Below, in pieces: positions 21,914 to 34,011 of a stretch of 64,000 nt of DNA. A program made the translations under genes and the position numbers. Origin of the DNA: Marinomonas arctica (GTDB taxonomy: Bacteria > Pseudomonadota > Gammaproteobacteria > Pseudomonadales > Marinomonadaceae); NCBI RefSeq assembly GCF_003259225.1, contig NZ_QHJF01000017.1:1-64000 (forward strand), read 5' to 3'. How positions within the stretch are numbered: position 1 is the stretch's first letter; each line of letters begins with the position of its first letter. The notes below the pieces were generated by a model. The model made no database searches, had not been told where the DNA came from, and saw only the letters and a list, made by a program, of their open reading frames with translations.

Positions 21914-22696
21914 ATGAACATGATCAACATCGAAGGACTCAATTTATCTTTTGGCTCAGGCTCAAACGAAAGCAAAATATTACATGATGTCAATATTCAG
22001 GTTAAAGCCGGTGAATCTTTTGGCTTGGTGGGGGAATCTGGTTCAGGCAAAACCACCGTTTTGCGCTGTCTAGCAGGACAATATCATCATTGGTCAGGGC
22101 AACTTTCCGTTAATGGCAATTCTCTGCAGCATAAGCTCGACAAAAAACGCTGCATCGATATGCAAATGGTTTTTCAAGATCCATATGGTTCGTTGCATCC
22201 AAGACACAGCATTGAAACAGCGCTTGCGGAACCGTTAAAGATCCACAAGATGGACAATAAAGACCAACGCATCAGTAGCATACTCAAAAAGGTAGGATTA
22301 GATGACAGCTTTCGTTATCGCTCACCGCACCAATTGTCTGGTGGTCAACGCCAACGCGTTGCGATTGCCAGAGCCTTAATACTTGAACCCCAAATTTTAC
22401 TCTTAGACGAACCAACGTCGGCACTGGATGTTTCTGTACAGGCAGAAATTCTTAATCTACTAAAAGAGTTAAAAGAAAAAGAGGGGCTAACCTATTTGAT
22501 GGTGACTCATGATCTTGGGGTCGTCACTTATCTGTGTGATCGTGTGGCCGTCATGCAAAATGGACACATTGTCGAAACCATTTCATCCAGTAATCTCGCG
22601 AATCATGGTGCATCAGAGCCTTATACAAAAATGCTTTTGGATTGTTGCTATCACACAGAAGCAAGGCTGAATGACACAACTTCTTTCGCAAATTAG
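21914..22696 (+). CDS. Dpp/Opp-type ABC transporter ATPase (DppF-like)
   Basis: 260 residues. Walker A GESGSGKTT, signature LSGGQRQRV, Walker B ILLLDEPTSALD, H-loop VTHDLGV. GAGGAG lies 5 bases before the ATG. It is also short relative to DppF (about 334). Last gene of the six-gene enolase/ABC operon; a terminator follows. Confidence 0.88.
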   Translation: MNMINIEGLNLSFGSGSNESKILHDVNIQVKAGESFGLVGESGSGKTTVLRCLAGQYHHWSGQLSVNGNSLQHKLDKKRCIDMQMVFQDPYGSLHPRHSIETALAEPLKIHKMDNKDQRISSILKKVGLDDSFRYRSPHQLSGGQRQRVAIARALILEPQILLLDEPTSALDVSVQAEILNLLKELKEKEGLTYLMVTHDLGVVTYLCDRVAVMQNGHIVETISSSNLANHGASEPYTKMLLDCCYHTEARLNDTTSFAN

Positions 22697-22725
22697 TTAG
22701 ATGCTTCAACATTATGAATATTTCG

Positions 22726-22756
22726 AAAGCGTTCGCTCTAAACGGAACGCTTTTTT
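22726..22756 (+). terminator. Intrinsic terminator after the Dpp-type operon
   Basis: AAAGCGTTC (22726-22734) pairs with GAACGCTTT (22745-22753), T-run to 22756. Loop about 10 nt. Confidence 0.8.
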
Positions 22757-22860
22757 ACTTTATTAATAGTGTTATGGACGTTTTCCTACAATAGAGTATA
22801 AAAACTCACATCGTAAAACACGATGTTGCAGATTCCGTTCTATTTTATTGCCCCCTTCTA

Positions 22861-22889
22861 TTACCAATTTTAATAAGAAGCGTTATCAT
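22861..22889 (+). promoter_or_regulatory. Probable Fur-controlled promoter of the siderophore importer
   Basis: TTACCA (-35, 22861-22866), 17-bp spacer, TATCAT (-10, 22884-22889). Read on the minus strand, 22874-22888 is TGATAACGCTTCTTA, which I count as 10 of 14 matches to the 7-1-7 Fur consensus TGATAATnATTATCA; it spans the spacer and -10. The following importer genes make iron control plausible. Confidence 0.55.
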
Positions 22890-22992
22890 TAGCACCGTTT
22901 ATTCGCCTACTAACGTCTTTAGGGTGCCTTATCCTTTTCCAAAGCATTCTAGTAAATACGTCGCTGTAGATATTCAATTCAAAGGAATCATT

Positions 22993-23934
22993 ATGCTGCT
23001 TAACCGACCTTCTTTTAAGAAAATCTTGCTTTGTGCCTGTGTTACCGCTTCTTTCGGCGCTTTTGCCAAGGATCATAGTGTTACAACGAAATATGGCGAA
23101 GTAAAAGTAAACGATAATGTAAGTCGCATTGTGGCACTATCTGAAGACGCTCTAGACAGTGCCATTGCTCTTGGCATTCAGCCTTTAGGGGCCGTTGCGA
23201 CACGTGGTGGAGATTCCGTAGCAGAATACATCCAAGAACGTGCAAAGGGGGTAAATATGGTCGGTACTTCACGTCAAAACAACCTTGAAGCCATTGCAGC
23301 ACAGCGCCCTGATCTTATTTTAGCGTCTGCAAGCTTACCGCAGGACCAATACAATATTTTATCGAAAATTGCGCCGACTATCGTCCCGCTTTCTCCTGGA
23401 ATGGTGTCAGACAGCTGGATTAGTATTGCAAAAGTCTACGCGCAAGCACTCAACAAAAGCCAAGAAATGGACATCATACTAAACGACATAAAAGAGCGTG
23501 AAAACACATTAAAAGACCGTATTACTGCGATCTTACCAGAAGACAAACGTTCAGCTACCTTAGCACGTTGGATGCCTCAAGGCCCTATTGTTATGTCATC
23601 ACAAATCTTCTCGACAGATGTCCTAGCCGCTACTGGCTTCATCATTAATGATGCGGATGTTATCAAAGAAGGCCGCCCTCACAGCAGCCCGCTCAGCCTA
23701 GAAAATTTATCTAAAGTAGACAGTGACTGGCTGTTTTTAGCCACGCTAAATACGGAAGGCAAAGACGCATTAGAAGCCGCTAAAACATCGCCTTCTTTCT
23801 CTCGCCTGAATGTCGTAAAAGACGATAAAGTCATCACAGTAAATGGTCAACTATGGACAAGTGCTGCAGGTCCACTGGCCGCTCATGCAATCTTGGATAA
23901 CATTGAAGCCATTATCGATAATAAGATTCAATAA
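22993..23934 (+). CDS. Iron-siderophore ABC transporter, periplasmic binding protein
   Basis: 313-residue FecB/FhuD-type (class III) binding protein. Signal peptide: KK at 9-10, hydrophobic core, cleavage near FGAFA. The typical start of the domain (TTKYGEVKVNDN, then RIVALSEDALDSAIALGI) is present. The ATG at 22993 has AAAGGAA 6 bases upstream; upstream in-frame codons to 22924 lie inside the leader. First gene of a four-gene importer; no TonB receptor is nearby. Confidence 0.87.
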   Translation: MLLNRPSFKKILLCACVTASFGAFAKDHSVTTKYGEVKVNDNVSRIVALSEDALDSAIALGIQPLGAVATRGGDSVAEYIQERAKGVNMVGTSRQNNLEAIAAQRPDLILASASLPQDQYNILSKIAPTIVPLSPGMVSDSWISIAKVYAQALNKSQEMDIILNDIKERENTLKDRITAILPEDKRSATLARWMPQGPIVMSSQIFSTDVLAATGFIINDADVIKEGRPHSSPLSLENLSKVDSDWLFLATLNTEGKDALEAAKTSPSFSRLNVVKDDKVITVNGQLWTSAAGPLAAHAILDNIEAIIDNKIQ

Positions 23935-23939
23935 ATCCG

Positions 23940-24959
23940 ATGATCAGTTGGTTTCAAACGCCTCCATCACAACGACCACTGTTTCGCGTTTTTGTGTCAG
24001 CACTTTTGGTGCTGGCACTTTGCTGTTTCTGTAGTTTGTTGCTTGGTGCGGGAGGCTTAAGTCCGCAAGCGTCCTTTCAAACATTATTAGGTAATGGTTC
24101 ATCGGACGATCAATTCACCGTCTTTCATTTGCGCACTACTCGAACTCTCGTTGGTGTATTTGTTGGCCTAACATTGGGCATTGCTGGCGCCATGATGCAA
24201 TCTGTCGCACGCAATCCTTTGGCAGAGCCCGGTTTGCTCGGCGTCAGTGCTGGAAGCTCATTTGCTGTCGCACTGACATTAGTGCTTGGGGCGAGCACGG
24301 CCACTCTGACCGTTGGTGTCGCACAATTTGGCGCCTTGTTGGGTTGTCTATGCGTGCTCGGGGTGGCCCGAATGCAAGGGCAGCAAAATGATCCTATTCG
24401 TTTGGTGCTCGCGGGGGCCGCTTTGTCGAGCTTATTATTTGCCATCACCTCTTTGATACTCTTGTTTGATCAAAGAGCCGCCGATGAAATTCGTTTTTGG
24501 GTGACAGGCAGTGTGGCAGGACGAGATATCCAGACATTACTCTCTGTACTACCCTCTATGCTAATGGCTGCCCTCTGTATTCTATACGTTGCTAAACCAT
24601 TAGCTTCCTTAGCGCTAGGGGAACGCGTTGCCATTGGTCTTGGCCATAAACCCAAACGAATTCGTGCTGTGGTCATTGTGGCCGTTGCGTTATTAGTGGG
24701 CGGTGCTACCGCCATCGCAGGGCCAGTGGCATTTATTGGTCTAGTGGTTCCCTTCGCCGCTCGTGCGTTGGTCGGACCAGATATTCGTCGTACCTTGTGG
24801 TTATGCTTGCCTCTCGGCCCCATCATTGTGATTGCTGCAGACGTTGTTTCCCGCCTTGTGGCTCAGCCTGCGGAAATGCCTTTGGGCGTTCTAACCGCTA
24901 TTATTGGTGCGCCAGTACTTTTATTGATTGTGCGATCTCGAAGAATGCCTACTTTATGA
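23940..24959 (+). CDS. Iron-siderophore ABC transporter permease (FecCD family)
   Basis: 339 residues, about nine or ten membrane segments. FecCD signatures: ARNPLAEPGLLGVSAG near 84-99, and GPVAFIGLVVPFAAR in the C-terminal half. Starts 5 bp after the binding-protein gene; overlaps the next permease by 4 bp. Confidence 0.9.
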   Translation: MISWFQTPPSQRPLFRVFVSALLVLALCCFCSLLLGAGGLSPQASFQTLLGNGSSDDQFTVFHLRTTRTLVGVFVGLTLGIAGAMMQSVARNPLAEPGLLGVSAGSSFAVALTLVLGASTATLTVGVAQFGALLGCLCVLGVARMQGQQNDPIRLVLAGAALSSLLFAITSLILLFDQRAADEIRFWVTGSVAGRDIQTLLSVLPSMLMAALCILYVAKPLASLALGERVAIGLGHKPKRIRAVVIVAVALLVGGATAIAGPVAFIGLVVPFAARALVGPDIRRTLWLCLPLGPIIVIAADVVSRLVAQPAEMPLGVLTAIIGAPVLLLIVRSRRMPTL

Positions 24960-26041
24960 TAAATCAAAGTCTTTCTATTACTCACCCAGCAGACACTGTG
25001 TCGGCGCCAAGCGGGCACTACCTGCTGTCTCTAGGTCGTCATATGACGATTCTGATTGAAAAACACGCCATTATCCGAAATATTGGTTTGCTGATTTTAT
25101 TGTCGTGCGCGTGTATTGCCACTCTTGCCATTGGTACCATGCCAATATCGCCAAAAGATGTCATCGCGGTATTATTGGGTCACGGTGACGCCATGAGCCA
25201 GTTCATTGTGCAAGATTTACGCTTGCCACGTCTACTGGCCGCGCTGTTTACGGGGGCCGCGTTTAGTTTGGCTGGATGTTTAATGCAAACGATGGCTCGT
25301 AATCGGCTCGCGACACCGGGCATTATTGGCATAGATAACGCCGCCATGGCTTTTGCCGTCTCTTCCGTGGTTGGGATGGGCATTTCTTTAGCCCCCTCCG
25401 CTATGGCACTAGCGGGCGCCGCCACAGCAACGGCTCTGGCGTTTGGCCTAGCCGGTGGCAGCGGCACACGGGGCTACCGCTTTATTGTGGCCGGCATTGG
25501 CATTGGCGCTATTGCCGGCGCGGTAACACAATTACTATTAAGCCAAGTCAGTATTGATGTGGCCAACAGTGCCTACCCTTGGACCGTTGGTAGCCTAAGC
25601 GCTCGAGACCCTTTCATGGTGAATCTTTTGGGAGCTGGTATCGCCCTTTGTCTTATCGCTTGCCTGCTATTTTCCACTCAATTCGCCTTAATGCCCTTTT
25701 CAGATCAAGTGATTACAGGACTAGGAGCGAACATAAGACACATAAGAATCTTGGCTTTGGTGTTGTGCGTAACGCTCACAGGATTGGCTGTTGCCGTGGC
25801 GGGACCCGTTGGTCTAGTCGCCCTGGCCGGACCTGAAATTGCCCGTGTGCTGGCACGTTATCGAGGCATTCCGCTAATCAGCTCTGCACTAACGGGTGCC
25901 CTAGTGATGGTTTTAGCCGATTTGTTTGGCCGCACGATTTTATCCCCAATTGAACTGCCAGTCGGCATTGTAACCGCCGTCGTTGGTGGCCCTTATTTAA
26001 TTTGGATATTGATTCGACGCACCTCAAGGACTTCCCTATGA
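24956..26041 (+). CDS. Iron-siderophore ABC transporter permease (FecCD family)
   Basis: 361 residues, second half of a heterodimeric permease. ARNRLATPGIIGIDNAA and AGPVGLVALAGPEIAR are the matching family motifs. The ATG at 24956 overlaps the previous stop (ATGA). The first about 40 residues are a non-membrane extension, so a later ATG (MTILIEKH, residue 30) could be the real start. Upstream in-frame codons lie inside the previous gene and are not used. Confidence 0.87.
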   Translation: MINQSLSITHPADTVSAPSGHYLLSLGRHMTILIEKHAIIRNIGLLILLSCACIATLAIGTMPISPKDVIAVLLGHGDAMSQFIVQDLRLPRLLAALFTGAAFSLAGCLMQTMARNRLATPGIIGIDNAAMAFAVSSVVGMGISLAPSAMALAGAATATALAFGLAGGSGTRGYRFIVAGIGIGAIAGAVTQLLLSQVSIDVANSAYPWTVGSLSARDPFMVNLLGAGIALCLIACLLFSTQFALMPFSDQVITGLGANIRHIRILALVLCVTLTGLAVAVAGPVGLVALAGPEIARVLARYRGIPLISSALTGALVMVLADLFGRTILSPIELPVGIVTAVVGGPYLIWILIRRTSRTSL

Positions 26042-26868
26042 CCGTCACGACTCTGCATCAGCAGACTTCAACACACTTCATGAAATCTCGTCTCAGTGCC
26101 GACAATCTGACGTTAAAACATGGCAAGGTCAGTATTATTGAGCACTTAACTGTCAGCTTACCAGAAGGCAAAGTAACGGCTATTGTCGGACCAAATGGCT
26201 GCGGCAAGTCTACCCTATTGAATGGTCTATCACGTGTACACTCACCCAGCACAGGTGCGGTACTGCTCGATGGCAAAGACATTCACTCATTGCCATCCAA
26301 AGAAGTCGCCAGACGTCTTGCTTTACTACCACAAGACACACTCGCACCTGATGGCATTACTATTGAAGAGCTGATTCGCTTTGGTCGCCACCCTCACCAA
26401 AGCCTCTTAAAACAGTGGGCCATGGACGATCAAGAAGCCATTCAATACGCATTACATGCAGCGGACTTGATTGGATTAAAAGACCGACTACTAGACACTT
26501 TATCAGGGGGACAACGACAACGTGCTTGGATCGCCATGTCGATTGCCCAAGAAACCCCTTTGCTGTTACTGGATGAGCCTACATCCGCATTGGATTTAGG
26601 TCATCAAATTGAAGTTTTTGAATTGATTAGAGACCTATCGAGACAAGGCAAAACACTCGCCATGGTGGTTCATGACCTACCCAGTGCTTGTCGATATTCT
26701 GATCATATTATTGCGATGAAGAAAGGTGAAATCATCACCCAAGGCAGCCCTAAAGACGTGATGACAAAAGAGTTAGTACGTGAATTGTATGGCGTTGAGT
26801 GCGACCTGATACCAGACCCTATGACAGGCAGCCCCATTCTTATCAATATGAAGCGAGTCAGGAACTAA
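26038..26868 (+). CDS. Iron-siderophore ABC transporter ATPase (FecE/FepC-like)
   Basis: 276 residues. Walker A GPNGCGKST, Q-loop LLPQDT, signature LSGGQRQRAW, Walker B LLLLDEPTSALD, H-loop VVHDLP. Overlaps the permease by 4 bp (ATGA). A residue-20 ATG (MKSRLSAD) would also fit the family start. Closes the importer; a bidirectional terminator follows. Confidence 0.9.
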   Translation: MTVTTLHQQTSTHFMKSRLSADNLTLKHGKVSIIEHLTVSLPEGKVTAIVGPNGCGKSTLLNGLSRVHSPSTGAVLLDGKDIHSLPSKEVARRLALLPQDTLAPDGITIEELIRFGRHPHQSLLKQWAMDDQEAIQYALHAADLIGLKDRLLDTLSGGQRQRAWIAMSIAQETPLLLLDEPTSALDLGHQIEVFELIRDLSRQGKTLAMVVHDLPSACRYSDHIIAMKKGEIITQGSPKDVMTKELVRELYGVECDLIPDPMTGSPILINMKRVRN

Positions 26869-26880
26869 ATCAGCCAGAAA

Positions 26881-26925
26881 GCAGGTCTGATCTGGTGAGA
26901 TATCGCCGGATCAGATCTGCTTATT
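26881..26925. terminator. Bidirectional terminator between siderophore and Hsp70 operons
   Basis: GCAGGTCTGATCTGG (26881-26895) and CCGGATCAGATCTGC (26906-26920) form a stem of about 15 bp with one or two mismatches, followed by TTATTTT. It sits between two convergent operons. Confidence 0.65.
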
Positions 26926-26931
26926 TTGTGG

Positions 26932-29661
26932 CTACAAACGCAACCCGATTGGCAAACTCTCCCCAACTAATGCATTAAGCTCGTCACTATTAATCTCAAT
27001 TTGACTCTCTAAGCGCTCCAGCCATTGAGCGGGACATTTGTCTTTTTTAAGCTTATTAGCCACTTTCTTGCGCAAAGCAACGAGTTTATCGGATTCACCG
27101 ACACTGACTTGACTCATCAAAACCGCCGCTAAACCTGCTTGTTTTCGTTTTTTCCAGTCTTCTTTAAGCACCGTCTCTAAAATGGGAAACAAACTGTCTT
27201 CTGCAATGCGTTGTTCTTGCTTACCACAAAGAAGGTGTCGGGAAGCAATTCGCCCTATCGTCCACCACGCTGTATCCGGCTCAGACGTTTTCTGTAAACG
27301 CTTCAGTAGCCAATCGATCGTGGTGACTTTGTCATCGTTTGATAACCCCTCCAACGCCCCTACCAAGCGAATCAAATCATCGCTGGACTTGGTGGTGAGG
27401 TCTTTCATTTTATCCCGTGAACGTTGTCCTGTGGGCGAATAATATTGGCTAAATTGTTTGAACAAAAGGGTCTGTTGTTCCAAGGTTAACCCACCCGCAA
27501 TGCGACGATATAAGGTCCAATATTGTCCCCAAACTGGCGCTGTATCAAACTGAGCTCCCGCCTTAGTGGCGTTCACTACTTGCTGTACACGAGCCAAATC
27601 ATCCGCTGCACCAAAACCGGGACGCAAACAATAGCCCATTAACTGCAACCACTGGCGCTCATGTTGCGCGCTTTTCGTTCGACCCGATTTTACACTCAGA
27701 AGTTTATCCACTAGGCGACGTGACGTAACAAGGTTCCAGTCGTCTCGATTGCCCAATAATTGATCCAAATCTTGCTTCAGAGATTTCACTAAGTCAGGGT
27801 GTTGCTTTTGACCGGCGCTCGAAAAGCATTTCGTTAAATGCTCTTCAGCCTGTCCCATATTGGCATGCAGTAACCCCCTTTCATCCGCTTGTTCAGAGTC
27901 TTGAGGCGAACTGGCACGAGCGGAAAAATCCAAGCGCCATTGATCTTTCTGATTATTAGCGTTTAACATCACTTGCAAAACACCGACTTCGGTCATTTGC
28001 ACTGACAAGATCACCGACATTTCTTGCGAATCGCTAGTGCCATCCAGTTCTGTCATCAAAGTAGAGATATAATGCAATCCCTCTTGATTACGTACTTTGC
28101 CAATGACACAGTCAAGATGATCGTCAGAGCGATACAAAGGGAATTGTACTTGTTGACCAAGAGTGACAAAGAACTCTTGCTCTAAACGAATGACTTCGCC
28201 TTTTAACGTACCCTTTGGCAAAATGCCGACGAATTGATCCTCGCCAACTTGCAGATACAAACTGTGTGCAACACCGCTTTCAATACGCGTACTGTCACCC
28301 ACCAAGGCATTCAAATACATGGCCGCCCCTTTGGCCACCGCGTCGTTAGGCTCATCCGCGCTACAAGCAAGAATCGGCTTGGCAGACCAAGCATTAAGCT
28401 GTTCTAACAAACGCGCTTTTAACACAGGGCTGTTAAATAAGCCGCCGTTAAATAAAACGGCATCCGGCATAGACGAGCCCGTTGCCGCCTCGATTACGGT
28501 TTTATGCTGCTGTAAAAACGCCGCTAAATGGCGTGTAAAAGCAGGATCCGATTCGTAGGGCAAGCCCAAGGTGTGCATGGCGTAATCGCTCTTTTGCACC
28601 TTGTCATCAAGGCTTACCAAAGGAAAAAAGCCACTACGAATTTGTTCTAATAGGGTGTCTCTCGACACCTCAAACTTTTGTGAACCGCCGATTAAACGAC
28701 TACCACCACCCAGCACGGTAATACTTAATGACTCGGGCGCGTCTTTGCCTAGCAAGGTTTCTTTGGCTTGACGTGTCTGTTGAACCAAAGCGCCTAAGCG
28801 GGTCGCTGACAAGGCAGAAATTTGCTTCGGATCGAGCTGGAACGCCAAGGCTTGATCTAAATTATCGCCCCCCAGCAACAGATGTTCCCCTACCGCGATA
28901 CGCTTAAGCGCCACGCTGGTATTTTTTGTCGATGTCGGCTGAATAGCAACCAAACTAAAGTCACTGGTCCCCCCACCAATATCGACAACCAAAAGCATTT
29001 TTTTATCGGCCAGCGCGGCAAGCCTTTCGTCATTATTAATGTAATGGTAACAAGCCGCTTGTGGCTCTTCTAAAAGGTATAAATCGTTTAGACCAGCCAG
29101 TTTAGCGGCTTCCAGTGTTAATGCTCGCGCCTCTTCGTCAAAAGAAGCTGGCAAGGTTAACGCGATCGTTTGAGACTCTAACGGCGCATCGGCAAAGCGA
29201 TGGTTCCAGCTCTGCTTAATGTGCAATAAGAGCATTTTACTCGCCTCAAGTGGACTGAGCTTTTTAGGGAATTCACTGGCCCATGGCAAAATCGCCGAGC
29301 GACGATCTACTTGACGATGGCTCAACCAGCTTTTCGCACTTTGGATGAGCTGACCAGCTCGACGTTGACCTAAAGCTAATGCCCCAACACCAAGGATTCG
29401 TTCTTTATCGCAATGACGCCATGGCAAAACCGGATCGAGTTTACCCACTTCATCAGACGCCAATACGTAAATGGCACTCGGCAAATAGGTAAATTCTTGC
29501 ACTGAACCATCGACCATCACTTGTGGAATAGACAGCAACTCTGGTTCAGCTTGCTTAGGAAAAGTTCCATCACCATAAATAGGAATGAAGGAGACAACGC
29601 AATTGGTTGTCCCTAAATCAATGCCTACTCGATATTTGTTTTGAAAAGCCGCTTGCGCCAT
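26932..29661 (-). CDS. Long Hsp70-family protein with C-terminal helical extension
   Basis: 909 residues. The N-terminal 530 or so are an Hsp70 ATPase-type region with phosphate-1 GIDLGTTNC (near 13), phosphate-2 VVDIGGGTSDFS (near 225), GGDNLDQAL and an adenosine-site FNGGLFNSP (near 405). The remaining about 350 residues are helical and charged, resembling the DUF3731 domain found with such Hsp70s; they replace the usual substrate lid. Last gene of uup-DUF2760-hsp70-hsp70, 3 bp after the previous gene. ATPase residues look intact; client and co-chaperone are unknown. Confidence 0.8.
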   Translation of the reverse strand: MAQAAFQNKYRVGIDLGTTNCVVSFIPIYGDGTFPKQAEPELLSIPQVMVDGSVQEFTYLPSAIYVLASDEVGKLDPVLPWRHCDKERILGVGALALGQRRAGQLIQSAKSWLSHRQVDRRSAILPWASEFPKKLSPLEASKMLLLHIKQSWNHRFADAPLESQTIALTLPASFDEEARALTLEAAKLAGLNDLYLLEEPQAACYHYINNDERLAALADKKMLLVVDIGGGTSDFSLVAIQPTSTKNTSVALKRIAVGEHLLLGGDNLDQALAFQLDPKQISALSATRLGALVQQTRQAKETLLGKDAPESLSITVLGGGSRLIGGSQKFEVSRDTLLEQIRSGFFPLVSLDDKVQKSDYAMHTLGLPYESDPAFTRHLAAFLQQHKTVIEAATGSSMPDAVLFNGGLFNSPVLKARLLEQLNAWSAKPILACSADEPNDAVAKGAAMYLNALVGDSTRIESGVAHSLYLQVGEDQFVGILPKGTLKGEVIRLEQEFFVTLGQQVQFPLYRSDDHLDCVIGKVRNQEGLHYISTLMTELDGTSDSQEMSVILSVQMTEVGVLQVMLNANNQKDQWRLDFSARASSPQDSEQADERGLLHANMGQAEEHLTKCFSSAGQKQHPDLVKSLKQDLDQLLGNRDDWNLVTSRRLVDKLLSVKSGRTKSAQHERQWLQLMGYCLRPGFGAADDLARVQQVVNATKAGAQFDTAPVWGQYWTLYRRIAGGLTLEQQTLLFKQFSQYYSPTGQRSRDKMKDLTTKSSDDLIRLVGALEGLSNDDKVTTIDWLLKRLQKTSEPDTAWWTIGRIASRHLLCGKQEQRIAEDSLFPILETVLKEDWKKRKQAGLAAVLMSQVSVGESDKLVALRKKVANKLKKDKCPAQWLERLESQIEINSDELNALVGESLPIGLRL

Positions 29662-29664
29662 GTA

Positions 29665-31443
29665 TTAAGACTCCCTAACTTGAAACTCAATCGTCCAACT
29701 TAGGTCAGATTGGGTATCATGTGCTTGCAATAACAGCAATCCCAATTCGGTGACACGCGACGTTAAATACACTCGAACCATCTCACCAGACGAATAATGA
29801 CCCGCATCTAAACGAACCGACAAGGGATTGAGCTCCTCGAGTTGAGCAAGCGAAAAAGCCCCAATAACCTTACCCACGGCATGCGCTTCGCTTATTTTAG
29901 ATTGGAAGAAACGGAAGGTCACACTTTCACCCACCACTAGCGAAAACTCGTTCGGAAGCATCTGCTCTTCTGAGCCTTCTTCTAGCCCAAAAGGAGCGAC
30001 ACAGATCGCATCGACTGGTGGTGCCATACCCGGTATGGCTGGCATTGGACTAGCCACACCAATGTAATAATTAGCCGCCAAACCACTCTTTACTTTAACA
30101 CCGCCTTGCGCTTGCACTTGAGCATAGTAAGTCGCGCCTTTGGCGACCGCGTGATCCAAATGCGATGGCGTCAGCATGGTTAATTCACGGCCACTTAACG
30201 ACTCAGACAACATGGCTGCCAAGCGAGTTTCTAACGTGCTGCGAATCACACTGGCGTTAAACACACCGCCGTTTAACAATACTTTGCTGGGCTTCACATC
30301 ATGCTGTGCTATAAACTCACTGATGTGACGGGTAATCGCTGGATCCCCTTCGTAATCCAAGTTGATCGCACTAAAACCACTGCGCGCTGCTTTTTGAGCT
30401 TGCTCACCCAGTTGCACCTGTGGAAAGAAACCATCGATCAAAAGCTGCTGAACGTCATTTTGTGTCAAGGTCGCTTTGATGCTGTTATTGAACAAACTGC
30501 GACCCCGACTTGGAACGACAACACTGACGTCCTCTAGGTCAGCATTAGACAACAAGCGCTCTTTTGCCTCCCGACAAGCTTGCGTTAAACCGCTGATTTG
30601 CCAAGGTTCGAGATGGGTACCGTTTTGTGCCAGTTGCGCGGCTACATGATAAGTCAGCGTCAGATCCATATTGTCGCCACCAAGCAAAATATGACGACCC
30701 ACTGCCACTCGCTCTAAACCAAGCGCACCCTCTTGTTCAACCACTTGGATTAATGACAGATCCGTGGTACCACCGCCAACATCCACAACCAAAATATGAT
30801 CATTGACGACTAGGCTGTCTGCCCAATTTTGCTGGTCACTCAGCCAAGCGTAAAACGCCGCTAGTGGCTCTTCGATCAAACGGGCACGCAAACCGACTTT
30901 CTCTGCCGCTTGCTCAGTAATGGCGCGAGCTGCAGGATCAAATGATGCGGGTACGGTAATCACAACGGTTTGCTCGGCAATGGGAGCATGAGGAAATTGA
31001 CTCGTCCATGCACTCACCAGATGGGCCAAAAGCGTTTCCGTGACTTGCGCAGGAGACACTTTTTCCACTTCTTCCAGTGCATCCACCGGCAAAACCGCTT
31101 CATCCGCACCGACGCGAGAATGACACAACCAACTCTTCGCACTTTGCACCAATCGACCAGAAGACTTAGCGCCCAATTCACGAGCCAATTGCCCCACAAT
31201 GGACGTCGCTTTACCCCAAGGCAGTAGCAAGTCGCTTTCTAGAAACTCCGTTTTATGAGGAAAATAGACAAACGAAGGCAGTAAGGGTCGAGCATCCACC
31301 TGACCTGCCGCAATAAACTGCGGAATGGCCAATTGCTGAATGCGCCCTACTTGGTTGGTTTCTACCCCAGCTGGATTAGATGGCGAATAATAGACAGCCG
31401 AATGCGTGGTACCCAAGTCGATACCAATGAAATATTGACTCAT
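29665..31443 (-). CDS. Hsp70-family protein (shorter paralogue)
   Basis: 592 residues. Phosphate-1 GIDLGTTHS (near 7), phosphate-2 VVDVGGGTTDLS (near 225), GGDNMDL and adenosine-site LNGGVFNAS are conserved. After the ATPase domain comes only a short beta-rich part (about 460-592) and no standard helical lid, so it is shorter than DnaK (638). Clearly related to its downstream neighbour but divergent. Gaps of 3 bp on both sides make tight co-translation with the DUF2760 gene and the long Hsp70 likely. Confidence 0.82.
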   Translation of the reverse strand: MSQYFIGIDLGTTHSAVYYSPSNPAGVETNQVGRIQQLAIPQFIAAGQVDARPLLPSFVYFPHKTEFLESDLLLPWGKATSIVGQLARELGAKSSGRLVQSAKSWLCHSRVGADEAVLPVDALEEVEKVSPAQVTETLLAHLVSAWTSQFPHAPIAEQTVVITVPASFDPAARAITEQAAEKVGLRARLIEEPLAAFYAWLSDQQNWADSLVVNDHILVVDVGGGTTDLSLIQVVEQEGALGLERVAVGRHILLGGDNMDLTLTYHVAAQLAQNGTHLEPWQISGLTQACREAKERLLSNADLEDVSVVVPSRGRSLFNNSIKATLTQNDVQQLLIDGFFPQVQLGEQAQKAARSGFSAINLDYEGDPAITRHISEFIAQHDVKPSKVLLNGGVFNASVIRSTLETRLAAMLSESLSGRELTMLTPSHLDHAVAKGATYYAQVQAQGGVKVKSGLAANYYIGVASPMPAIPGMAPPVDAICVAPFGLEEGSEEQMLPNEFSLVVGESVTFRFFQSKISEAHAVGKVIGAFSLAQLEELNPLSVRLDAGHYSSGEMVRVYLTSRVTELGLLLLQAHDTQSDLSWTIEFQVRES

Positions 31444-31446
31444 GAG

Positions 31447-32055
31447 TTATACCTCGATTTCAGCTGGCGCTAGAATATTCAGACTGTCAGTGTTGGTGAT
31501 TTTCGGCAAACGTGTTTCGGTCACTTTCCAACCTGGATGAATCAGGGTTCCGGTATATGGACCATCACCTTCCAGACGACCTTCAAGCTTGATCTGTTTT
31601 GCATCGTAACCAGAGGGTACTTCGACACGGCTATTCTCTACCGCTGTATTGACAACATCCATAGACACAACATCGATCGTGAAGTGCTGCTTCAATACTT
31701 TGGCGCAACCCGCGTGGATCTGACGAGACGCCGCCCCCACATCCGCATCGCTATAATCATCAATACTTTCTTGAATGAAGTCGATAAAGCGCGCTTCTTG
31801 TTGCAACAATTGCAATAACTGATGTGCACCGTCCGTGTTGACCGAATCCAAAGCAGGCGCTGCGACTTCGATTTCACGAATCACTTCGACTTCTTCCGTA
31901 ATCACTTTCGGTTCCACTTCGAAGGCAAACTGCTCGCCTTGACCAACCGTTTGACAACGAGCGGCATAATCGCCGCTCCCCATGTATTTAAAAAACTGAC
32001 CAAACGCACCGAAAAAGCGCGGCACAAATGAAACTGGTTTGATTTTATTCGTCAT
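31447..32055 (-). CDS. DUF2760 protein linked to the Hsp70 pair
   Basis: 202 residues, apparently soluble. An N-terminal segment (PRFFGAFGQFFKYMGSGD) is followed by an acidic middle, a helical part rich in Gln/Glu (LLQLLQQEARFIDFIQE) and a beta-rich end (GTLIHPGWKVTETRLP). I recognise the DUF2760 family, which I recall next to such Hsp70 genes. A co-chaperone or substrate adaptor role is inference. It begins 21 bp after uup. Confidence 0.75.
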   Translation of the reverse strand: MTNKIKPVSFVPRFFGAFGQFFKYMGSGDYAARCQTVGQGEQFAFEVEPKVITEEVEVIREIEVAAPALDSVNTDGAHQLLQLLQQEARFIDFIQESIDDYSDADVGAASRQIHAGCAKVLKQHFTIDVVSMDVVNTAVENSRVEVPSGYDAKQIKLEGRLEGDGPYTGTLIHPGWKVTETRLPKITNTDSLNILAPAEIEV

Positions 32056-32057
32056 AA

Positions 32058-32090
32058 TTTACCCGTTTTGCACAGTTTACCCGTTTTGCA
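32058..32090. repeat. Tandem 15-bp direct repeat at the uup stop codon
   Basis: TTTACCCGTTTTGCA occurs at 32058-32072 and again at 32076-32090 (18-bp period). The right copy encodes the last uup codons and stop (CAAAACGGGTAA on the minus strand); the left copy repeats this after the stop, in the spacer ahead of the DUF2760 gene. Confidence 0.85.
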
Positions 32091-34011
32091 TCTCTTCAAG
32101 CTCTAGCCAGCGCTCCATCGCACTTTCAAGCTCTTCTTCTTTATGAGCTAACTTCGCTAAGGTTTTTTGCACAAGATCTGCCTCTCCTGTATAAAATTCA
32201 GGAGCACTTGTCGTGGCATGTAACGCCGCAATATCTGACTCTAACTTGGCTATCGTGGCTGGCATATCGTCAAATTCACGCTGTAATTTATAACTTAGCT
32301 TGGCTTTGGGCTTAGCTTGTGCAGCAGTCGTACTTTGATTTGTTTCTTCTGTTTTTTTCGCGTCAGCTTTGGCTTTTTCTTTTTTGCTTACTACATTGTC
32401 CGTTTGCGATGTGGACTCTGTGGGAAACTTGCCCCCTTGACGAATCCAGTCTTGATAACCGCCAACGTATTCTTTGACTCGGCCTTCGCCTTCAAACGCA
32501 ATCACACTGGTGACAACATTATCTAAGAAAGCACGGTCATGGCTGACCAACAACAAAGTACCTTCGTAATTCATTAGCAGCTCTTCAAGCAATTCTAATG
32601 TTTCCACATCAAGGTCGTTGGTTGGCTCATCCATAATCAGAAGGTTAGCTGGACGGGTAAATAATTTCGCCAGCAGCACACGGTTTCGCTCACCACCAGA
32701 CAAGGCTTTTACAGGTGTTCGAGCACGCTCAGGTGGGAAAAGGAAGTCACCCAAGTAGCCAATCACGTGTTTATTTTGACCATTGATCTCAATAATGTCT
32801 TTGCCTTCGCCGACGTTTTCTGCGACGGTTTGCTCTGGATCAAGTTGCTCGCGCAATTGGTCGAAATACGCTACGTTGAGTTTGGTACCCTGACGAACCG
32901 AACCCGTTTCAGGTTCAAGATCCCCTAATAAAATTTTCAGGAAGGTACTTTTACCGCAACCATTTGGACCAATTAGACCAATACGATCACCGCGATTGAC
33001 CACGAAATCCATCGGTTGCAGGATCACCTTGTCTTCAAAAGAATGTCCGACTTGGGTGAATTCAGCCACCAACTTGCCAGACTTATCTTTGGTTTCAATG
33101 GCCATTTTGGCGTTACCTTGGCGATTGATACGCTCAGAACGCTCTTCACGTAACGCTTTTAGAGCACGAACTCGGCCCTCGTTGCGGGTACGACGTGCTT
33201 TAATGCCTTGTCGAATCCACACTTCTTCTTCTGCCAAACGTTTGTCGAACAAAGCGTTTGCACGCTCTTCCTCTTCAAGCATTTTTTCTTTAAAAGCAAG
33301 AAACGCCGTAATATTACCGCTGAACGAAATCAGGTTACCGCGATCAAGTTCAATAATACGGTTGGCCAATTTTTCCAGGAAACGACGATCGTGGGTAATG
33401 AATAGGATCAACCCTCGGAACTGTTGAAGCTGTTGCTCCATCCACTCTATGGTCGGTACGTCCAGATGGTTGGTTGGCTCGTCGAGCAATAAAACATCTG
33501 GATTCGAAATCAAGGCTTGCGCTAGGATAACGCGACGACGCCAACCACCCGACAGCTCAGACATCAGCTTATCTGCTGGCAAAGCCAAGCGTTGAATCAT
33601 GTGATTGACTCGTTGCTCCAGATCCCAACCTTGAATGCGGTCCAACTCCGTCTGAATATCACTTAATTCGTTCGAATGATCATTTTCGAAGTCTTCTAAT
33701 AACTTAAAATAGCGGCTCATCAATGAATGGGCTTCACCCGCCCCTTCACTAACCACTTCACGGACGGTTTTTTCATTTGCATCAGGCAACTCTTGTGGGA
33801 GCTGTCCAATGGTCATACCGCCTTCTAGACGCACGACACCCTCATCCGGAATTTGCTCGCCTGAAATGACTTTTAACAGCGTGGATTTACCTGCACCGTT
33901 ACGACCGATAATGGCAACACGCTCTCCAGCTTCCGCTGAAAAACTGATTTTTGACAGCAGCGGATTATGCCCAAAAGCAACACTGATCTGTTCTAACGAC
34001 AATAGACTCAT
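32077..34011 (-). CDS. uup: ABC-F ATPase Uup
   Basis: 644 residues with two ABC domains and no membrane part: GRNGAGKST with LSGGWRRRV, and GPNGCGKST with LSGGERNRV. The inter-domain linker (about 235-300) is long and charged, and the C-terminal about 90 residues are a coiled-coil extension after a low-complexity Lys/Ala linker, as in Uup, which acts on ribosomes and affects transposon excision in E. coli. First gene of the operon with the DUF2760/Hsp70 genes. Confidence 0.87.
   Translation of the reverse strand: MSLLSLEQISVAFGHNPLLSKISFSAEAGERVAIIGRNGAGKSTLLKVISGEQIPDEGVVRLEGGMTIGQLPQELPDANEKTVREVVSEGAGEAHSLMSRYFKLLEDFENDHSNELSDIQTELDRIQGWDLEQRVNHMIQRLALPADKLMSELSGGWRRRVILAQALISNPDVLLLDEPTNHLDVPTIEWMEQQLQQFRGLILFITHDRRFLEKLANRIIELDRGNLISFSGNITAFLAFKEKMLEEEERANALFDKRLAEEEVWIRQGIKARRTRNEGRVRALKALREERSERINRQGNAKMAIETKDKSGKLVAEFTQVGHSFEDKVILQPMDFVVNRGDRIGLIGPNGCGKSTFLKILLGDLEPETGSVRQGTKLNVAYFDQLREQLDPEQTVAENVGEGKDIIEINGQNKHVIGYLGDFLFPPERARTPVKALSGGERNRVLLAKLFTRPANLLIMDEPTNDLDVETLELLEELLMNYEGTLLLVSHDRAFLDNVVTSVIAFEGEGRVKEYVGGYQDWIRQGGKFPTESTSQTDNVVSKKEKAKADAKKTEETNQSTTAAQAKPKAKLSYKLQREFDDMPATIAKLESDIAALHATTSAPEFYTGEADLVQKTLAKLAHKEEELESAMERWLELEEMQNG

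Follow-up and report, generated by a model that had tools for sequence, protein, structure and literature searches.

A DUF2760 protein encoded with two paralogous Hsp70-type ATPases: a gene set of Marinomonas arctica and distant bacteria that may form one chaperone machine

The locus in Marinomonas arctica

The window, i.e., the whole stretch of 64,000 nucleotides of Marinomonas arctica DNA that was analysed, carries a DUF2760 protein and two Hsp70-type ATPases, hereafter D, A, and B, encoded in this order as a single minus-strand run with 3-bp gaps, and 21 bp separate D from a uup-like gene (Table 1). A reading made from the sequence alone had reported exactly this arrangement, and open reading frames and coordinates agree with it. 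D matches PF10816 with 154 bits (cut-off 25), which secures the DUF2760 identity proposed for it, as the score is above the gathering cut-off. A matches PF00012 with no further domain, and B matches PF00012 together with PF12531 (DUF3731, 249 bits, cut-off 25). Convergent with B lie ABC transporter genes of the iron-siderophore type (positions 21914–26868), and the strong hairpin between them is a probable terminator on the plus strand. As the sequence-only reading had noted, no DnaJ or GrpE gene is linked to the trio; no gene for any J-protein or for GrpE turned up anywhere in the 64-kb window. A PF00012 search of the genome to which the window belongs returned DnaK, A, B, a YegD-like protein and an MreB-like protein of 349 aa only; no HscA was seen in this search, which is unusual for the class.

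Table 1. Positions of the gene trio and adjoining features in the window.
Feature	Position	Strand	Evidence
Hairpin of 20 pairs with a T run, separating B from the convergent ABC-transporter gene	26879–26922	.	
B, Hsp70-type ATPase with DUF3731, 909 aa	26932–29661	minus	ORF, Pfam, alignment, structure model
DUF3731 (PF12531) coding part of B, residues 664–909	26935–27672	minus	Pfam
A, Hsp70-type ATPase, 592 aa	29665–31443	minus	ORF, Pfam, alignment
D, DUF2760 protein, 202 aa	31447–32055	minus	ORF; PF10816 at 2.2e-45
uup-like ABC-F gene, directly upstream of D	32077–34011	minus	ORF

A and B as members of the Hsp70 superfamily

Both large proteins have the features of the Hsp70 superfamily (PF00012), i.e., the catalytic residues and a beta domain following the nucleotide-binding domain (NBD). 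A consists of the NBD and a predicted substrate-binding beta domain and stops right after the latter, so that the lack of a helical lid, already suspected, is confirmed; the beta domain is kept in all A sequences of the alignment. B is predicted to comprise an NBD (residues 8–455), a beta domain (about 464–580) and a helical DUF3731 region (602–899) of about 20 helices (model pLDDT 81), which is the large helical extension previously ascribed to it. Residues 8–582 of the B model, including the beta domain, align with DnaK and BiP over 460–470 residues at Z 32–35, and both rank above Sse1 in Foldseek.

The ATP-site motifs attributed to both proteins are likewise retained. The equivalents of D8, T11, E171, D194, T199, and D201 of DnaK do not vary among the 33 A and 31 B sequences compared, and the invariant residues of A are D9, T12, K103, E192, D221, T226, and D228. 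The counterpart of K70, placed by profile alignment to DnaK and by invariant columns, is K103 in A (within SAKSWL) and K110 in B, and is invariant in both. The linker VLLLD of DnaK is replaced by [IV]xxG in A and B, and N170 and T173, which we take to contact the J-domain in DnaK, are replaced in both, as is D393. R167, which in DnaK is the arginine opposite the HPD loop of a J-protein (PMC7289447), persists in only 10 of 33 A and 14 of 31 B. Neither the canonical hydrophobic linker nor most of the J-domain contact residues that were checked are kept in A and B.

Assignment to a known family falls short throughout. The two Hsp70s score 69 and 57 bits against the DnaK equivalog cut-off of 648, and 32 and 49 bits against that of YegD (PRK11678, 331). 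HscA is their best NCBIfam match by score, with 89 and 81 bits where the cut-off is 620, and 83 and 78 bits where it is 709. The profile by which A-type Hsp70s were called (A3) aligns with B proteins along almost its entire length of 610 positions (about 380–690 bits); against DnaK it scores about 60 bits only, confined to the NBD. In a tree of 45 Hsp70s, including DnaK, HscA, and HscC of E. coli, YegD, and other Hsp70s of the same genomes, A and B group together at 99/99 on a long branch apart from all of these; E. coli HscC, itself on a long branch, falls on the DnaK side at 100/100. Within their clade A and B form largely two lines, and each of them could have had a single origin. By tree and profile A and B are paralogues within a single Hsp70 subfamily of their own and are more than divergent DnaKs.

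The DUF2760 protein

AlphaFold2 predicts for D hydrophobic N-terminal helices (residues about 10–38), a disordered linker (39–73) and an alpha/beta core (74–190), at medium confidence (pLDDT 68), and the conserved part of the protein spans residues 75–202 (Pfam; alignment of 45 sequences). Foldseek and a second look gave no convincing PDB fold match to this model of pLDDT 68, and no PDB chain matching D by sequence was found. A clear N-terminal transmembrane helix followed by basic residues is present in 17 of 75 D sequences (Methylococcaceae, Moritella, Psychromonas, and others), and by the positive-inside rule these residues would leave the conserved part of D in the cytoplasm. In the other 58, including those of Marinomonas, the N-terminus is shorter and only mildly hydrophobic, for which reason their membrane attachment can only be guessed at. 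The putative adaptor D is probably membrane-associated.

The C-terminal ends of D and B are conserved where their models are unfolded. D of the window ends in ILAPAEIEV, the conserved tail (AEVEL) recurs as A[EQ][VI]E[LV] in 35 of the 36 D proteins from the genome samples (seven with one extra residue), and no variation is seen at E199 and E201 in the alignment of 45 sequences. B carries GE[SA]LPxGL near its end (GESLPxGLRL, likewise conserved, in the window), with G900, P904, and G906 invariant. Conservation of ends that the models leave unfolded hints that they dock to a partner.

Co-occurrence of the three genes

Among 398 Pseudomonadota genomes D is present in 28, A (called by profile A3 at E up to 1e-60) in exactly these 28, and B in 27, which leaves 370 genomes with none of the three. 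The phylum of a Planctomycetaceae record (139 genomes) gives the same picture: D occurs in 18 genomes, 17 of which also have B, and A in all 18 D-positive and none of the 42 D-negative genomes checked. In the sole Pseudomonadota genome with D and A that is negative for B, A lies 85 bases from a contig end, and in the one D-positive genome without B of the other phylum A is again near a contig edge. All B-positive genomes are thus D-positive (27 of 27 and 17 of 17; hypergeometric p about 5e-41 and 7e-21, values which ignore relatedness and are inflated by the kinship of the genomes), and counted by genus the coincidence of D and B has p of about 1e-18. Independent scattering of the genes in other genomes, named beforehand as the outcome that would speak against a common module, was not seen.

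The order D-A-B recurs in both samples. Outside Marinomonas, D and A overlap by 4 bp at stop and start in 36 of 43 loci, and the two are usually translationally coupled. B does not adjoin A in many genomes, above all in Methylococcaceae and part of Accumulibacter; a search of the genomes found such a B elsewhere in the same genome in 18 of 20, and in one Deltaproteobacteria bin and one Planctomycetaceae bin D, A, and B are on three separate contigs. It is therefore well supported that the three genes occur as a set or not at all, even when unlinked. Over 53 loci the pairwise distances of the three proteins are correlated with one another (r = 0.95–0.99), as expected for common inheritance; high values also arise from shared phylogeny alone. 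DUF2760 is carried by 46 of 48 Marinomonas genomes, so that the module is close to core in this genus.

Some exceptional copies were noted. One Methylococcales genome (G667, C42 and C46) has two B genes and one A match. Stops interrupt B in Methylocucumis oryzae (G658:C341:28673-29417), and in Marinomonas rhodophyticola (L017:12174-13449) both A and B are split; either case may reflect decay or errors of draft sequencing.

A proposed machine and its nearest parallels

The best reading, to which we give a probability of about one half, is that D, A, and B constitute one obligate chaperone machine, in which a fixed Hsp70 pair works with a membrane-associated adaptor that replaces the J-protein. 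The roles, binding, activity, membrane recruitment and clients of the three proteins that we infer for it would be as follows. D would sit at the cytoplasmic membrane via its N-terminus and hold the Hsp70s there with its alpha/beta core and C-terminal tail, thereby taking the targeting job that a J-protein has for DnaK or HscC. The lidless A would cycle on and off extended client segments, and B would bind beside A, with the DUF3731 helices standing in for the lid as a surface for holding or docking; B may also influence A in the way that Hsp110 influences Hsp70. The clients would probably be membrane or membrane-associated proteins, and J-protein and GrpE would probably be dispensable. Against a single machine counts that B is often unlinked from D-A. 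The idea, put forward in the sequence-only reading, that two specialised chaperones work as a pair with an adaptor of their own fits everything found, with three refinements: uup lies in front only in Marinomonas and is not a member, A and B are more than divergent DnaKs, and the adaptor is probably membrane-associated.

A more tentative step, which we would at present rather doubt than assert, is to see here a further bacterial Hsp70 system beside DnaK, HscA, and HscC, without J-protein and GrpE and made up of a membrane-associated DUF2760 adaptor in the place of the J-protein and a paralogous, heteromeric couple of the Hsp70/Hsp110 kind, one partner lidless and the other with the DUF3731 helices.

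The nearest functional parallel would be HscC of E. coli, a specialised Hsp70 with a proposed function at the plasma membrane that probably works with the membrane-anchored DjlB and DjlC (PMC8215388). The likeness lies in a specialised Hsp70 with membrane-anchored, in that case tail-anchored, partners; HscC, however, belongs to the DnaK side of the tree, keeps its lid and has no second Hsp70, and its partners are J-proteins, whereas D is without HPD. The nearest structural parallel would be the eukaryotic Hsp70-Hsp110 couple, as there too two Hsp70 paralogues are found together, one with a long C-terminal extension. This comparison is by fold alone, and the extension of B is DUF3731 and B is closer to DnaK and BiP than to Sse1 (Foldseek). 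HscA/HscB resembles the trio as a dedicated Hsp70 with an adjoining helper gene and gives the best NCBIfam score, but the trio is far below the HscA cut-offs, has neither HscB nor isc linkage and forms a separate clade. With the DnaK-DnaJ-GrpE system A and B share the fold of NBD and beta substrate domain and the catalytic residues; they differ from it in the absence of the VLLLD linker, of a lid in A and of any consistent J-protein or GrpE linkage, and in the DUF3731 helices of B. As a lead, MXAN_5323 of Myxococcus xanthus, a divergent Hsp70 of 925 aa whose deletion reduces both sporulation and survival of H2O2 (PMC8265645), resembles B in length and divergence, a likeness drawn from its description.

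In the literature searched, which left subscription journals mostly outside, no paper named DUF2760, DUF3731, PF10816 or PF12531. The module adds a pair of paralogous Hsp70s that accompanies a putative adaptor other than a J-protein, both across distant phyla and on plasmids. If the proposed machine is real, it would offer a test of whether a J-domain is indispensable to Hsp70 machines, and the uncharacterised families DUF2760 and DUF3731 would gain a concrete, testable role.

Alternative explanations

A and B may instead be Hsp70-fold ATPases that do not fold proteins and form, together with D, a membrane switch or scaffold in the manner of actin-fold regulators. The fixed three-part composition and the loss of the canonical linker in both proteins and of the lid in A speak for such a role. 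We nevertheless consider it unlikely, as the beta substrate domain is kept in all A and that of the B model is part of the long alignment to DnaK and BiP.

About equally unlikely is that D drives the ATP cycle of both Hsp70s, either as a dedicated, GrpE-like nucleotide exchange factor or as a J-protein substitute of unrelated fold, with membrane attachment being secondary. D is coupled to A, and the order of its elements (an N-terminal helix, two helices and then a small beta domain) recalls GrpE. The GrpE reading was first suggested by the C-terminal part of D, which recalls the beta domain of GrpE. Profile comparison with GrpE gave a probability of 0.2%, and GrpE is not listed among the PDB matches of the D model (Foldseek and the second look), a model of medium confidence, so that the reading is kept as a rival only. 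The HPD motif, by which J-domain proteins are recognised, is absent from all 75 D sequences. J-domain hits occur in only 3 of 75 fetched loci, all of them of Marinomonas. These three (L028, L030, and L048) encode a J-domain protein of about 450 aa with HPD, some 3–4 kb beyond B on the opposite strand.

That the trio is a mobile accessory or anti-phage module, rather than the membrane-associated chaperone machine preferred here, seems improbable. Its distribution is patchy, and it is carried by plasmids: the complete trio is found between trb genes and a topoisomerase on pCC829_3, a 110-kb conjugative plasmid of Bradyrhizobium barranii, and also on a Comamonadaceae plasmid, and on one plasmid of Candidatus Thiodictyon syntrophicum D-A without B adjoins the anti-phage-associated DUF499, DUF3780, DUF1156, and phospholipase D-like genes. 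The near-core status in Marinomonas, where all 32 fetched loci share one position behind uup, speaks against mobility. PADLOC returned no family beyond a weak, generic Hsp70 match, and with this match and the single Thiodictyon context the case for a role in defence is weak.

For chance adjacency of unrelated genes nothing speaks beyond the variable flanking genes, and the coinciding presence counted in each of the two phylum-level samples, with the D-A-B order recurring in both, refutes it.

The flanking genes themselves differ between lineages. In other genomes inspected the position of uup is occupied by other genes, and uup was therefore rejected as a functional partner; it is a Marinomonas neighbour and no member of the module. 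Genes for RNase R, CcmB, an M48 peptidase and a DEAH helicase with DUF3418 beside the module were set aside as specific to Methylococcaceae, and the genes next to unlinked copies of B (among them a multicopper oxidase and an alpha/beta hydrolase) have no common theme. In 11 loci of Methylococcaceae and relatives (L060, L066, L069, L091, and others) a conserved protein of 100–158 aa, without a Pfam match and with a start like that of a signal peptide or lipoprotein, is encoded directly upstream of D.
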